Assembly: GCA_011390165.1 (NCBI GenBank)
Contig: JAABSV010000002.1
Location: 62,001 to 126,000, forward strand
Source: Desulfobulbaceae bacterium
GTDB lineage: Bacteria; Desulfobacterota; Desulfobulbia; Desulfobulbales; Desulfocapsaceae
DNA: 64,000 bases
Direction of reading: 5' to 3'
Shown: positions 34,937 to 42,600 of the stretch, piece by piece
Layout of the letters: the number at the start of each line of letters is the position of its first letter
Numbering within the stretch: the stretch's first letter is position 1
Translations under genes and position numbers: made by a program
The notes under the pieces: model-generated
Database searches by the model: none
Told to the model about the DNA's origin: nothing
What the model saw: only the letters and a program-made list of their open reading frames with translations

Positions 34937-37177
34937 TCAGGAGCCCCCTTCAGTGTGGAGGCGCCACGTTTCCTTAACCCGGTCATAGTGGTAAAACATC
35001 ACCAGGGTTAGGGGACGTCCAGAACCGGTTTCGGTACACTGCATTCTGAAGAGGAGTTCCGTGTCGCTTTGCCTGGCCAACTTCACCTGGAAATTCGTCA
35101 AACTGTCCGGGTTGACGGTGGGGTAATGGGCGGCAAAGAGGTCGCGAAAATGCTCGCGCAGATGCCCCTCCCTCGCCGCGAGGTAGCTGCGGCTGGTCAA
35201 TTCCTCAATGGCTGCAGTTAATTCCACCCGGGTAGAGTGGAACTCTGCCTCGTCGGTGAAGCCGCTGCCGGTGATGGCATCGATGATGCGCTGGTAGCTG
35301 GCACGGGCAGCCGAGAGGTTGTTCTCCTGCAGGGCGCTGGCAGCGGACTGGCGTTCCTGAATGATGGCGGCCTGGAGGATGATCCGCTCAATTTTACGCC
35401 TGCTGGCAGCTGAATCGGTGCCGGCGAGAAGGTCCTGGTGGCTCGTCAGGAGATCGGCAGCCTGCTGGTAGGCCGCAATTGCCTCCTCCCATCTGCCTCC
35501 GGCGAAGGCCAGATTGGCACGGTCGACGGTGCTGTAGAGTTCCGCCCGCTGCAGACGTTCCTGCAAGGGGGGTATGGTTGTCTGCGGCGGGGAGGCAGCT
35601 TCCTCCACCATGGCCAGAGCGGCCCGGTAGGCCTCGGCCGCCTGCGACCAGCTGCTGGCGGCAAATAACTGGTCGGCCGCGGCGACCGCCAGCTCAAGTT
35701 GGCAGTGTTGCCGGAGAGCGGTAAGCTGCGGCCGATGACGGTCCCCCTCCGCCACCATGCCGGAAGCAAGAAGTTCTGCCGCTGCGTCGATCTCGGCCAG
35801 TGCTGCCGCCCACTGCCTCTCGTCATGCAGTTTACGGGCTGTGGCGTGGGTCTGGTGGAAAAGGGCGGTGTCCAGTTTTCCCTGCAAGTCGTGCAGAGAC
35901 TGATCGTCTTGGTGCAGGCGAGACTGGTCGAGGAGGTCACGGTAGATGGCAGTTGCCGCTGCCCACTGACCGGTGCTGACCAGTTGTTGGGCTTCATCCA
36001 GGCCGGCAGACAGCCTCTGCTGAAACGCCAGTTTTTCCCGTTCGACGTAGGTACCGTCGACCAGCACCTTCCCCTGTAGTCCCTGACGAAGCTCTTCCGA
36101 CTGAAGAATTCGATCAACGGTAGCCAGCAGGTTTTGTACCTGCTGCCGCTGGCGGAAGGGAATGGCCTCCAGGGTTAACCGGGTCGACTGGCAGAGCGAT
36201 TCGGCGGCGGAGAAATCGCCGCCGGCAAGCAGCGACCGGCAGCGGTCGATTTCGGTCTCTGCGGCAGCCAGCTGGCGACTTTGCGACACGTAGAGGTAGC
36301 CGCCGCCGGCTGCGACAGTAATAGCCGGCAGGAGGAAAAGAGCCAGCCACAGCGAGCGACGCCGGCTGGATGGCTTTGCCTGGGGCGGTTGGTATGAGGA
36401 GAGCGTCCGGTGGCGGCGTTTGGGGCGCTCCTCACCGCTCTCTTGTCGCTGACGATTTGCTGCCGGCGGTGGCACTTCGGCCGGGGCGGTTGGGGAAGAG
36501 GTGGCTGCTGCTGCCGGAGAGGGGTCGATTGCCGGGCTGAGGGAAGCGGCTTCGCTGAAGGCACCGGCGTCGTCGACGTCGAGCTGTGCTACCGCCTCTT
36601 GTGCCGCGTCGTCATCGCCATCCTCGTCAACTTCGAGACTGAGGTAGTCTAAGTCGGCATGAAGGTCGGCATCTTCAAGAATGTCGATCGTCTCGTCGGG
36701 TGTAGGCTGGCCGGCCGCAGGTCGGATCCAGAGCAGTTGGGCGAGGGGGAAGCGTTGGCGGTGCTCTGCGTACCAGGAGGCGGCCTGCTCGTTGAAGGCG
36801 TTGCCGGTGGTAAACAGTTCTCCATTGATCATTTTGCCAAGATGGATGATCAACTCCGGCAGGGAGGGGGTATGGGTCCAGAAATCACCGAGGCAGATGG
36901 CAGCCGGGTCAAAATCCGGATGGAAAATGGGGCTTTTCGGCTTGCAGTTCGGTGGGAAATGGGGGAAGCCGAAGGGGATTGCCAGCTCGACCCTATGTTC
37001 GTCCACGGTAACGATCTCTCCCTGGGGGGTCTGGCTGAGACCGGCAAGGAGATAGGTGATAAGGTAGCTGTCAGGCGGCTGCCCGTGGTCGGGGGTGACC
37101 CTGATCAACGGATGGGCAGAAAAGGTTGCTTCAATCTGCCGGTGGATATCCTCCAGGTGGTCAGTGGCAAATGACAT
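34937..37177 (-). CDS. Membrane protein with N-terminal ubiquitin-conjugating (E2)-like domain and repeat region
   Basis: A 746-residue protein of unusual build. Residues about 1-150 look like an E2/UBC fold: a beta-meander (HRVELAIPFGFPHFPPN), the 'HPN' position as HPDF (86-89), then AICLG with Cys95 at the position of the catalytic cysteine, TPSLPELIIHLGKMI and NAFNEQAASWYAEH, the equivalent of the E2 C-terminal helices. Residues 155-272 are an acidic, then Pro/Ala-rich linker. A transmembrane segment follows (about 276-298), and the rest is helical repeats (TPR/coiled-coil-like; several 'A...W..A...Y..' repeats). The C-terminus, with YHYDRVKETWRLHTEG, may be a small beta domain. No E1, ubiquitin-like or deubiquitinase gene adjoins it. 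Family and role unknown; the E2-like call is from motif pattern, not from a search. Confidence 0.6.
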   Translation of the reverse strand: MSFATDHLEDIHRQIEATFSAHPLIRVTPDHGQPPDSYLITYLLAGLSQTPQGEIVTVDEHRVELAIPFGFPHFPPNCKPKSPIFHPDFDPAAICLGDFWTHTPSLPELIIHLGKMINGELFTTGNAFNEQAASWYAEHRQRFPLAQLLWIRPAAGQPTPDETIDILEDADLHADLDYLSLEVDEDGDDDAAQEAVAQLDVDDAGAFSEAASLSPAIDPSPAAAATSSPTAPAEVPPPAANRQRQESGEERPKRRHRTLSSYQPPQAKPSSRRRSLWLALFLLPAITVAAGGGYLYVSQSRQLAAAETEIDRCRSLLAGGDFSAAESLCQSTRLTLEAIPFRQRQQVQNLLATVDRILQSEELRQGLQGKVLVDGTYVEREKLAFQQRLSAGLDEAQQLVSTGQWAAATAIYRDLLDQSRLHQDDQSLHDLQGKLDTALFHQTHATARKLHDERQWAAALAEIDAAAELLASGMVAEGDRHRPQLTALRQHCQLELAVAAADQLFAASSWSQAAEAYRAALAMVEEAASPPQTTIPPLQERLQRAELYSTVDRANLAFAGGRWEEAIAAYQQAADLLTSHQDLLAGTDSAASRRKIERIILQAAIIQERQSAASALQENNLSAARASYQRIIDAITGSGFTDEAEFHSTRVELTAAIEELTSRSYLAAREGHLREHFRDLFAAHYPTVNPDSLTNFQVKLARQSDTELLFRMQCTETGSGRPLTLVMFYHYDRVKETWRLHTEGGS

Positions 37178-37540
37178 ATCTCATCCCGGGCTGCGCCGGC
37201 GCGGTTGGCTGAATTGTCTGACGAGGTCTCATAAGGTTTGGTGAGGTTGTACGACCACCCATGAGATCTAACGATACCCCTCCGGCCGGCAGGATCACCC
37301 GGTGGAACGGCATGCTGCCGCTGGCGAACTTCCGGTGGAAATGCTCCTGTTCTGTGTTACTATACCAGCATCTTCTGGTAACGACAAAAAAAAGTTGCCA
37401 CCGGAGTTGCCGGCGTGCGAAACTGACAAAAACACTGGCGACGGGCGGCTCAAGCTGGAAACCGATATCGCTGTCGCCGTGGAGGAAAGAGCAGAGGAAT
37501 CCCGAAATGTGTCGAATATGGAGTGGAAAAGAGGAAGCCG
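37178..37540. other. Divergent intergenic region between the E2-like gene and the cyclic-nucleotide protein
   Basis: It contains the second copy of the TACCCCTC/GGCCGGCAGGA string (37275-37294, one mismatch). A frame of up to 80 codons (37302-37544) reaches the next gene's start with an ATGA overlap, but its codon use and composition do not stand out, so I do not call it. The stretch 37355-37400 is AT-rich and is the best place for a promoter of the gene to the right. Confidence 0.4.
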
Positions 37541-38596
37541 ATGAACCATTTTCACGCCACATTCAAAATCACCGCTGACCGCAACTGCCCACTCTACGAC
37601 GAAGAGGAGAGGCTGCAGCTGACCGAAAAGACCATTACCTGCCCGCCGGGAAAGGAGGCCTGCCTGATTCTGGTGCGGGATATGACGGAACTGCTCTTCC
37701 AGCTGCTTCGCAGGCTGCCTGAGCATCTTGATACCGACAGAGTTTTCAACTGCAGCGGTTGCAGCGGCCTGATCAAGTTTCAATTGGAGCGTTCTCCCCT
37801 AAAGGATGAGGGCGATACGGGCGTTGTGGTCCAGGCCCGCTCCGACTCCGGAAAGAGTCGGCTTCGGTCGGCGCTGGCACGCTGTTCCCTCTTTACCGGC
37901 GTGCCGGCCGGCCGGCTCGACACCCTTCAGGAGCACTTCCGGGAAATGGAGGTGGAGGCCGGTGGCCTGCTGTTCCGACGAGGCGACCAGAACCGCAACA
38001 TCTATATCGTTATCGATGGGGCAGCGTACGTTGGCGAAGGGGAGCAGTCGATCACGCTGGGGCCGGGGGAGGTTTGTGGCGAGATGAGTTATCTGGGCCC
38101 GGATTTGGCTGTGGCAACCGTCCGGGCCAGAGAGAAAAGCCTCTTCCTGGCGATGCCCGGAGAGGCCTTTGGCCGGCTGCTCGGCGACATCCCGGGGGTG
38201 CAGGCAGAGATGGCCAGACTGCTGGCTGCCCGGTTGCGGCGGAGCAGTGCGGTCAGGGCTGGCGAGGTGGAGGCGTGCATGACCGGCAGAATTGCCGAAA
38301 TCGTCCCGGCGGAACTGCTGCAGATTTTTCACATGCACCAGAAGACCGGCATGCTGACCCTGGAACTCCCGGGCGGGATCGGCAAGATTGCCTTCCGGGA
38401 GGGGTGTATCATTAACGCCAGTTACGGCCAGTTGCGCAGCCAGAAGGCGATCTTCTCGGTTCTGGCGGAAAAGGAGGGGCGCTACCGGTTCACCTCCGGT
38501 CTCTCTCCACAGGACATGAAGGCGGCCGAGATCGGTGATTTCATGATGCTGCTGATGGAGGGGATACGCAGGGTTGACGAGGGGTTGAGCGATTAG
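37541..38596 (+). CDS. Cyclic-nucleotide-binding domain and DUF4388/PATAN regulatory protein
   Basis: A 351-residue protein in three parts. Residues 1-90 form a Cys-bearing unknown domain (ITADRNCPLYDEEERL; VFNCSGCSGLI with CxxC). Residues about 110-230 are a Crp-like cNMP-binding domain (LFRRGDQNRNIYIVIDG, GEMSYLGPD). Residues about 240-351 match the DUF4388 (PATAN) type: HMHQKTGMLTLELPGGIGKI and FREGCIINASYG. There is no DNA-binding helix-turn-helix, so it probably works by protein contacts; in other deltaproteobacteria such proteins sit in signalling networks. ATG at 37541 has a GAGGAAG site. Confidence 0.8.
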   Translation: MNHFHATFKITADRNCPLYDEEERLQLTEKTITCPPGKEACLILVRDMTELLFQLLRRLPEHLDTDRVFNCSGCSGLIKFQLERSPLKDEGDTGVVVQARSDSGKSRLRSALARCSLFTGVPAGRLDTLQEHFREMEVEAGGLLFRRGDQNRNIYIVIDGAAYVGEGEQSITLGPGEVCGEMSYLGPDLAVATVRAREKSLFLAMPGEAFGRLLGDIPGVQAEMARLLAARLRRSSAVRAGEVEACMTGRIAEIVPAELLQIFHMHQKTGMLTLELPGGIGKIAFREGCIINASYGQLRSQKAIFSVLAEKEGRYRFTSGLSPQDMKAAEIGDFMMLLMEGIRRVDEGLSD

Positions 38597-40032: not shown

Positions 40033-42600
40033 TCAGACCCGCTTCTCACCCCAGAAGGTGAGGACCGGGCTGGCAATGAAGATTGACGAGTAGGTTCCGA
40101 TCAGTACCCCGATCAGCAACGTGAAGGCGAAATCGCGGATCACCGTACCACCGAACAGGAAGAGAGAAAGGAGCACGGCGGCGGTGGTCAGGGAGGTGAC
40201 GATGGTGCGACCTAGTACCTGGTTGACACTCTCGTTTATGGTCGAGGTGAGGGAGCTATTCTCCAGTTTACGGAGGTTTTCGCGGATCCGGTCGAAGACC
40301 ACCACCGAGTCGTTGATGGAATAGCCGGCCAGGGTAAGCAGGGCGGTGACGATCAGCAGGGTGATCTCGACATCCAGCAGCCAGCAGATGCCAAGGACCA
40401 CCAGTACGTCATGAAAGGTGGCTATGGCGGCGGCGAGGCCGAAGCGGATATCAAAACGGAGGGCAAGATAGACAATGACCCCCGCCAGGGAGATGAGTAT
40501 CGCCAAAATGGCCTTGTCGCGGAGCACTGAACTGACCGAGGCACCGATCTCCGACTGGCTCTCGATGACAAAATTTTTTCCCGGCAGTTCACTGGAGAAG
40601 ATCGCGCCGACGCTCTCGTCGAGGTTGGCCACCACCGCATCGGCCTTTTTGATCTTGACGATCAGTCGGTACTCGTTTTCGACCTTCTGCAGGTCGACAT
40701 CCCCCATGCCGTTGCGGGCCAGGGCCTGCCGCACCTCAGCCATGCTGAACTCTTCGCTGGCCCGGTACTGGAGAAGGGAGCCGCCGGTAAAGTCGACCCC
40801 GAGGTTGGCCTGGCCGCGGCTGATCTGGATAAAGGCGAGAAGGCCGATGGCCACCATCACCCCGGAGATGGCGTAGGTTATCTTGCGTATATTCAGGTAG
40901 TTGAGATTGGGCTTGCTGATGATCTGGAGGAAGCGGAGGCTATTGAGGGGGCGACGGTTGTTGATGGTGTCGAACATCAGCCGGGAGAAGAACAGCACGG
41001 CAAAGAGGTTGAAGATAATCCCCAGCGAGAGGGTGACGGCAAAGCCTTTGATCGGTCCGGTGCCGAAGAGAAACAGGGCGAGGGCGGTAATCAGGGTGGT
41101 AACCTGGGAGTCGACGATGGTGGAGAGGGCGTTGCCGTAGCCCCCCTCGATACTGGAACGGACCGATTTGCCCAGGCTGTACTCCTCGCGCATCCGCTCA
41201 TAGATGATCACGTTGGCGTCGACGGCCATGCCGATGGAGAGGATGATGCCGGCAATTCCCGGCAAGGTAAGGGTGGCGCTGAGAACTGCCAGGCCGGCAA
41301 AAAGCAGGAGTATGTTGAGGACCAGGGCGCTGTTGGCAATGATCCCCGAGAGCCGGTAATAGATGACCATGAAGGCGAGAACGATGATCGCCCCGAACAG
41401 CCCCGAAGCCATCCCCTTGTTGATCGAGTCCTGGCCGAGGGTGGCGCCCACCGTCATGTTCTGGACGATATCCACCGGTGCCGGCAGTGCTCCGACCCGG
41501 AGGACGATGGCCAGGTCGGCCGCCTCTTCATGACTGAAGTTGCCGGTAATCTGTGCCGAACCGCCAAGAATCCGCTCGCGGATCACCGGTGCCGAACGTA
41601 CCGTGTCGTCGAGGACGATGGCCATTCGCTTGCCGACGTTCCGTTCGGTGACCTGGCCAAAGACCTTGCCGCCGCGGTTGGTCATCTCAAGGCTGACGTA
41701 GGGTTCGTTGAAGGTGCCGCCGATCCGGACCTGGGCATCCTTGATCATTTCGCCGCTCATCAGGATCTTGTTATCCAGGAGCAGCGGGGTGAGACTCTCC
41801 CTGCCGGTCTGTTTGTCGGTCTCCTTCTCAAAGTGGATTGAGCTGTTGTCGGGCAGTCGGCTTTGCAGAACCCGGTTCAGCTTGGCGACACTCTCCCCAT
41901 CCTCCCACTGGCCGGTTGCCCGGGCCTGGGCGACCATTTCGTTGAGGTTGAGGCCGGCGCTATCGGCAACCAGGCGGAATTCGAGTTGAGCGGTGTCACC
42001 GAGCAGGCGCAGGGCCCGTTTCGGGTCCTTTACCCCGGGCAGTTGGATGACGATTTCGTCATCCCCCTGGCGGATGATCACCGGTTCGGCAACCCCGAAC
42101 TGGTCGATCCGGTTCCGCAGGATCTCCAGCGACTGGTCAACCGCATGCTGTTTGATATAGGCAATCTTTTCCTCACTGAGGCGGAGGAAAATTCTCGGAA
42201 AGCTTCCCTCTTTGGCCTCGACGGTGGCGTCAATATCCGGGAAGTCGTCGGTGATCATCTGCCCTACCCCGGCCACGGCGCTGCTGTTGGGCAGGGTGAA
42301 GATTACCGTGCCGGGGGTAGCCGAGGAGGTGCGGACGGCACTTATCGATTGGTCGGCGAGGGCGTCGCGCAGGTCGTTGGCGGCAAACTCCAGGGTATTC
42401 TCTTCAGCCTTGGGCAGATTGACCTTCAGTACCAGATGCATCCCCCCCTGCAGGTCCAGGCCGAGGCGGAGTCCTTCCGGCGCGAGATATTTTCGCCACC
42501 ACTCCGGGGTGCCGGCAAAAAATGAGGGGACAACCGTGGTGATGGCGAGAACGACGACCAGAAGCAGAAAGGTGAGTCTGAGTTTGAGTGCGGTAGTCAT
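40033..42600 (-). CDS. secDF: Protein translocase subunit SecDF (fusion)
   Basis: An 855-residue fusion of SecD and SecF, which use the proton gradient to help finish protein export through SecYEG. Expected features are the N-terminal membrane segment, GLDLQGGMHLVLKV, a large periplasmic domain, a first set of membrane helices with GIAGIILSIGMAVDANVIIYER (DAN(V/I)IIYER in SecD), and a SecF half from about residue 560 with the FTGGSLLQ and SINDSVVVFDRIREN motifs. The SecD/SecF fusion is common in Desulfobacterota. The YkgJ and HAD genes follow on the same strand. Confidence 0.96.
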   Translation of the reverse strand: MTTALKLRLTFLLLVVVLAITTVVPSFFAGTPEWWRKYLAPEGLRLGLDLQGGMHLVLKVNLPKAEENTLEFAANDLRDALADQSISAVRTSSATPGTVIFTLPNSSAVAGVGQMITDDFPDIDATVEAKEGSFPRIFLRLSEEKIAYIKQHAVDQSLEILRNRIDQFGVAEPVIIRQGDDEIVIQLPGVKDPKRALRLLGDTAQLEFRLVADSAGLNLNEMVAQARATGQWEDGESVAKLNRVLQSRLPDNSSIHFEKETDKQTGRESLTPLLLDNKILMSGEMIKDAQVRIGGTFNEPYVSLEMTNRGGKVFGQVTERNVGKRMAIVLDDTVRSAPVIRERILGGSAQITGNFSHEEAADLAIVLRVGALPAPVDIVQNMTVGATLGQDSINKGMASGLFGAIIVLAFMVIYYRLSGIIANSALVLNILLLFAGLAVLSATLTLPGIAGIILSIGMAVDANVIIYERMREEYSLGKSVRSSIEGGYGNALSTIVDSQVTTLITALALFLFGTGPIKGFAVTLSLGIIFNLFAVLFFSRLMFDTINNRRPLNSLRFLQIISKPNLNYLNIRKITYAISGVMVAIGLLAFIQISRGQANLGVDFTGGSLLQYRASEEFSMAEVRQALARNGMGDVDLQKVENEYRLIVKIKKADAVVANLDESVGAIFSSELPGKNFVIESQSEIGASVSSVLRDKAILAILISLAGVIVYLALRFDIRFGLAAAIATFHDVLVVLGICWLLDVEITLLIVTALLTLAGYSINDSVVVFDRIRENLRKLENSSLTSTINESVNQVLGRTIVTSLTTAAVLLSLFLFGGTVIRDFAFTLLIGVLIGTYSSIFIASPVLTFWGEKRV

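Follow-up and report, generated by a model that had tools for sequence, protein, structure and literature searches.

A membrane-anchored E2-fold protein family of the Desulfobulbales, probably a non-catalytic adaptor

In bacteria, the fold of ubiquitin-conjugating (E2) enzymes is known from operons with Ubl or JAB genes and from those of defence systems. The stretch of DNA analysed here, 64,000 nucleotides from a Desulfobulbaceae bacterium (contig JAABSV010000002.1, positions 62,001 to 126,000; hereafter the window), encodes a membrane protein that seemed to carry an E2-like domain outside any such operon. A preceding interpretation of the same DNA, made from its letters and here called the sequence-only reading, had proposed that the protein starts with an E2-like domain bearing an active-site cysteine. 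Is this protein a membrane-bound conjugating enzyme, or has the E2 fold been put to another use? No description of a membrane-anchored, non-operonic E2-fold family was found in the open-access literature.

The open reading frame of 746 amino acids at 34937-37177 (minus strand) is real. The motifs quoted earlier as following the order of E2 enzymes are all present in it: PFGFPHFPPN, HPDF, AICLG with Cys95, W100 and, for the closing helices, NAFNEQAASWYAEH. The locus is composed of the following features:

34937..37177, minus strand: predicted bitopic membrane protein of 746 aa, with E2-like domain, acidic linker, transmembrane (TM) helix, TPR-like solenoid and C-terminal beta domain
36734..37177, minus strand: UBC/E2-fold domain, residues 1-148 (UQ_con, PDB sequence matches, AlphaFold2 pLDDT 90, Foldseek)
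36950..36973, minus strand: FGFPHFPP loop, residues 69-76, the best-conserved stretch of the domain in the alignment of homologues
36944..36946, minus strand: Cys78, without variation in the window's family and sister family f3, Val or Ala in sister family f12
36914..36922, minus strand: His-Pro-Asp, residues 86-88, corresponding to the HPN motif of E2s
36893..36895, minus strand: Cys95, where E2s have their active-site residue; relatives have Arg, Lys, Ala, Pro, Ser or His here
36368..36733, minus strand: acidic Ala/Pro-rich linker, residues 149-270 (from sequence)
36290..36355, minus strand: lone transmembrane helix, residues 275-296, with RRR in front; N-terminus predicted inside
35153..36286, minus strand: TPR-like solenoid, residues 298-675, predicted periplasmic
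34940..35152, minus strand: C-terminal four-stranded domain, residues ~676-746, conserved; no named family matched
37178..37522, strand not assigned: upstream region common to the divergent E2-like and PATAN genes
37523..38596, plus strand: divergent neighbour, with N-terminal region, cNMP-binding domain and DUF4388 (PATAN) (Pfam)

Residues 1-150 can safely be assigned to the UBC/E2 superfamily, because UQ_con, PDB profile, AlphaFold2 and Foldseek results all point to E2s. With the whole protein as query, Pfam UQ_con matches residues 60-143 with 19.3 bits and is followed downstream by weak TPR matches; residues 1-152 alone score 23.1 bits (E=6e-5), below the curated cut-off of 27. UQ_con is matched by all 31 of the 31 aligned homologues (best 4e-8), and its curated cut-off is exceeded by a paralogue (L077, 33.5 bits) and by the relatives L121 (30.4 bits) and L122 (29.2 bits). 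Among the PDB matches listed, nearly all of those obtained with the domain sequence, and all of those obtained with the family profile (best 5.2e-5), are E2s. An AlphaFold2 model of the domain, built from the family alignment, reached pLDDT 90.3 and pTM 0.87; each of its best 50 Foldseek matches in PDB is an E2 or a complex that contains one (probability 1.00, TM ~0.60-0.69), and the best viral matches are likewise E2s. A chance resemblance is ruled out by the UQ_con matches of homologues, the PDB profile matches and Foldseek. The fold proposed by the sequence-only reading is thus borne out, model and Foldseek clearly returning E2s.

The proposal of a membrane anchor and helical repeats holds as well, with one TM helix (residues 275-296), while the small C-terminal beta domain had been overlooked. 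Each family member checked possesses one comparable TM helix. Judged by the positive-inside rule, the N-terminus is in and the E2-like domain is predicted to be cytoplasmic. Structure prediction divides the C-terminal part into a TPR-like solenoid and a separate four-stranded domain (pLDDT 91), and the sequence and fold matches of the part behind the TM helix are mostly TPR or TPR-like proteins. For the C-terminal beta domain, Foldseek returned TPR-driven matches only and no named family. Solenoid and C-terminal domain are both conserved across the families aligned.

The identity of residue 95 is central to the question of catalysis. In the window's own family (f1), this position is occupied by Cys in 64/67 sequences, by Ser in 2/67 and by His in 1/67; in sister lineages and paralogues that retain the remaining fold it is Arg, Lys, Ala or Pro. 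Family f12 has Arg (34/36) or Ala (2/36), f3 has Cys (7), Lys (12, of which ~7 are distinct since some loci were fetched twice) or Arg (2), and paralogues have Arg or Pro; all these counts are approximate, as exact duplicate slices only were removed. The expectation that Cys95 would be conserved in homologues therefore largely fails at the level of the order, where Arg in f12 (34/36), Lys throughout one clade of f3 (the Lys clade) and the paralogues all depart from it. Cys is also found at position 95 in family f6 and in the outlier L122. Within the main family the Cys state changed at least 2 times (tree of 49 rows), and all residue-95 states changed at least 8 times on a wider tree, whose root is unreliable owing to a very long outgroup branch. 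H86, P87, W100 and N129 are nearly invariant throughout, including where Cys95 is replaced, and the remainder of the protein is conserved in lineages without it. The strongest invariance lies in the FGFPHFPP, HPD and W segments of the domain. Cys78 is retained without Cys95 in the Lys clade. The E2 fold without catalytic cysteine is hence a property of f12, the Lys clade and the paralogues; the sequence in the window itself has Cys95.

The surroundings of the cysteine are also unusual. HPD instead of HPN is present in f1, f3 and nearly all of f12, which makes E2 activity less likely without excluding it, because some real E2s deviate from HPN too. Measured against the generally known loop lengths of canonical E2s, the spacing from HPD to Cys is 1 residue shorter and that from Cys to Trp 3 residues shorter.

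Some relatives deserve separate mention. Lysine at the E2 active-site position in L065, L066, L067, L069, L071, L072 and L073 represents a natural Cys-to-Lys change; the same change is made in the laboratory to obtain stable E2-ubiquitin conjugates, for example 6jb6, which is among the Foldseek matches. In L077 (4394-8923) and L079 (6821-11891), the gene of a Cys-less paralogue comes immediately after a ClpA-like gene and a ClpS-looking gene of 102 aa. As a hallmark of paralogues this ClpS-ClpA neighbourhood was rejected, for it is absent in L078, where RecD2 is found instead. The outlying E2-like protein of L122 (6451-11106, genome G576) combines Cys with zinc-ribbon-like cysteines, and its gene is located near genes for an FHA-domain membrane protein and a DnaJ plus zinc-ribbon protein.

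A conjugating enzyme needs to be seen together with its possible partners. No E1, Ubl or JAB gene is present in the neighbourhood of the E2-like gene, as the sequence-only reading had stated; the neighbours in the window encode a SIS-CBS protein, MetK, SAH hydrolase, the PATAN protein, a HAD protein and SecDF. Prok-JAB gave no match in the window's genome (91% complete). ThiF searches of this genome yielded two full matches and one sub-threshold match; by NCBIfam, one of the two ThiF proteins is nearest TcdA and the other nearest MoeB/ThiF, both far below equivalog cut-offs. In many genomes bearing the E2-like protein, this MoeB/ThiF-like E1 had no match at 1e-30; examples are G034, G087, G113 and G129, from one genus whose sampled members have Cys95.

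The locus does not belong to an E1-E2-JAB, Bil or CBASS-II operon, since neither E1 and JAB nor a CD-NTase is encoded alongside. PADLOC returned no E2 match. A role in defence was rejected: the protein yields only TPR noise, and the PADLOC hits of its divergent neighbour cover the cNMP-binding region of the latter. On contig 56 of G012, a genome of the window's genus, three consecutive genes make up a soluble conjugation-type cassette: E1 (ThiF), an E2 that has HPN and Cys, then JAB (L076, 3425-5997). G012 carries this cassette besides the E2-like membrane protein, and the soluble E2 matches the profile of the membrane family weakly (1e-5). As its soluble E2 (HPN, Cys) placed between E1 and JAB shows, an operon of the usual kind can be recognised where it occurs.

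The E2-like membrane protein was found in 158 of the 243 sampled genomes of the order Desulfobulbales. Outside the order, 2 convincing cases (G272 and G576) and three marginal hits were obtained in a sample of 395 from the phylum. Most of the named records belong to the Desulfobulbales, with Desulfocapsaceae or Desulfocapsa frequent among them; the one whole family that keeps Cys95 is Desulfocapsaceae by most of its named records. A recurrent gene order is SecDF, a CxxCxxCC gene, HAD, the divergent PATAN gene, the E2-like gene, a SIS/CBS gene, MetK and SAH hydrolase; f12 loci retain part of it. In the window (40033-42600), SecD and SecF apparently form a single 855-aa polypeptide.

The cNMP/DUF4388 neighbour noticed before was confirmed by Pfam, DUF4388 being presumably equivalent to PATAN. 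This gene is divergent and adjacent at 53/70 loci, including f3 loci with otherwise different neighbours, and absent at 17/70, including whole subclades; the 70 loci comprise the soluble E2 of L076 (1) and paralogues (3). PATAN is thus not obligatory. The neighbour often carries a fused cyclic-nucleotide domain. This domain is present at Cys-type loci (31) and absent at Arg/Lys-type loci (16), with two exceptions; a link between Cys state and cNMP domain was dropped, as there are only two independent pairs and the neighbour differs in neither.

The protein can be compared with several known systems. With canonical E2s (UQ_con PF00179; UBE2D, UBE2L3, UBE2M/Ubc12, UBE2C) it shares the UBC fold, the PxxPP segment, the HP dipeptide, the Trp that follows the active site, the closing helices and, in the window's family, the place of the Cys. 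It differs from them in HPD for HPN, in the shorter spacings, in a Cys that is not kept family-wide, in fusion to TM helix and TPR, and in a neighbourhood without E1 or Ubl gene. In UEV, RWD and other inactive E2-fold domains (TSG101, Mms2, AKTIP/FTS) the catalytic cysteine is replaced and the domain serves as a binding module. Such domains resemble part of our family in their E2 fold without catalytic Cys, and the FTS-Hook complex (8qat) is among the Foldseek matches; contrary to these eukaryotic proteins, the family partly keeps the cysteine and is anchored in the membrane, with a predicted periplasmic TPR part. Bacteria also have inactive E2/RWD-like domains, described from polyUbl operons (Iyer et al. 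2006, PMC1779556), which again show a bacterial E2 fold without Cys; polyUbl, E1 and JAB genes accompany those, and none of these accompanies the window protein. The E1-E2-JAB and Bil/CBASS-II systems (BilB is described in PMC11354881) have in common with it an E2 domain in bacteria, but they possess catalytic Cys and have E1 and JAB alongside, whereas the window protein carries a TM helix and is encoded next to neither. As to the divergent gene, cyanobacterial PATAN response regulators are reported, or have been proposed, to target the machinery of type IV pili, with PixE acting on the motor PilB1 (PMC7690835). The PATAN domain of PixE, PixG and LsiR (PMC7690835) is presumably also that of the window's neighbour (DUF4388), where it is fused to a cNMP domain, not to CheY. 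No pilus genes were seen adjoining it and no pilus link was found.

We propose that the E2-like region is a UEV/RWD-like non-catalytic binding domain on a bitopic inner-membrane adaptor, a reading that we consider probable. As related bacteria have lost the would-be catalytic cysteine, the domain is probably a docking module and not an enzyme. The UBC/E2-fold domain, on the cytoplasmic side, would bind as UEV and RWD domains do, with no transfer of ubiquitin-like proteins. Its FGFPHFPP segment, which we take to align with the L4 loop contacting E3s in canonical E2s, would bind a cytoplasmic partner through this same E2 face. The TM helix would join the domain to the TPR-like solenoid and small beta domain in the periplasm, and these probably bind envelope partners. 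On the grounds of synteny, the divergently encoded PATAN protein is a candidate partner, which would relay a signal from the cytoplasm, cyclic-nucleotide or other, to the adaptor complex; divergent gene pairs can have nothing but a control region in common.

Against binding alone counts the strong retention of Cys95 in one whole family, since pure binding does not require cysteine. It may be that Desulfocapsaceae have an active membrane-tethered E2-like enzyme, to whose Cys95 a small Ubl of ThiS/MoaD type would be passed from the MoeB/ThiF-like E1 and from there to membrane or partner proteins, the chemistry having been lost and the fold kept in sister families. The window's genome does encode such an E1, H86-P87 of the HPN motif are retained, Cys95 stands at the active-site position in 64/67 of the family, and Cys may be ancestral, since some f3 sequences, f6 and L122 have it too. 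We nevertheless regard this enzyme as unlikely: Asp replaces the HPN Asn, the active-site loop is shortened, the genome lacks JAB and the neighbourhood Ubl, E1 and JAB, the ThiF-like E1 is unmatched in many genomes having the protein, and lineages that have lost the Cys still conserve everything else in the protein. The conjugating activity implied by the sequence-only reading is not borne out on the same grounds of lost Cys95, HPD, shorter loop and missing JAB. An ordinary E2 whose operon is missing is disfavoured by the lack of family-wide Cys, of JAB and of a consistent E1. A mixed state, in which Desulfocapsaceae have an active E2 that sits in the inner membrane, is controlled by cyclic nucleotides and conjugates a so far unrecognised Ubl, and the sister lineages have a non-catalytic adaptor, seems improbable.

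The cysteines might also have a purpose of their own. Cys95 together with Cys78 could be a redox or sulfur-chemistry, ligand or modification site in Cys-bearing families, the fold being only its carrier; neither the window's family nor f3 varies at Cys78, Cys95 is nearly invariant in the family, and hosts are sulfur-cycle anaerobes by named records. This is quite doubtful, for the Lys clade keeps Cys78 alone, so that the two form no obligate pair, and no redox partner gene is consistently linked. Alternatively, the E2-like domain could serve a periplasmic TPR assembly protein as a structural cap or for dimerisation and have no partner in signalling, PATAN being a mere neighbour under a common control region. 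The loss of PATAN at 17/70 loci and the conserved solenoid and C-terminal domain suit this explanation; the invariance concentrated in the FGFPHFPP/HPD/W segments of the E2-like domain, and the persistence of the divergent pair where all other synteny is lost, do not, and we hold it to be rather unlikely.

In this family the E2 fold stands outside any conjugation operon, on a membrane protein that most sampled members of the order carry as a regular part of their chromosome. It also carries a warning that UQ_con-like hits in bacteria need not imply conjugation. The sister lineages with and without the Cys would offer a natural set for asking how E2 folds shift between catalysis and binding.
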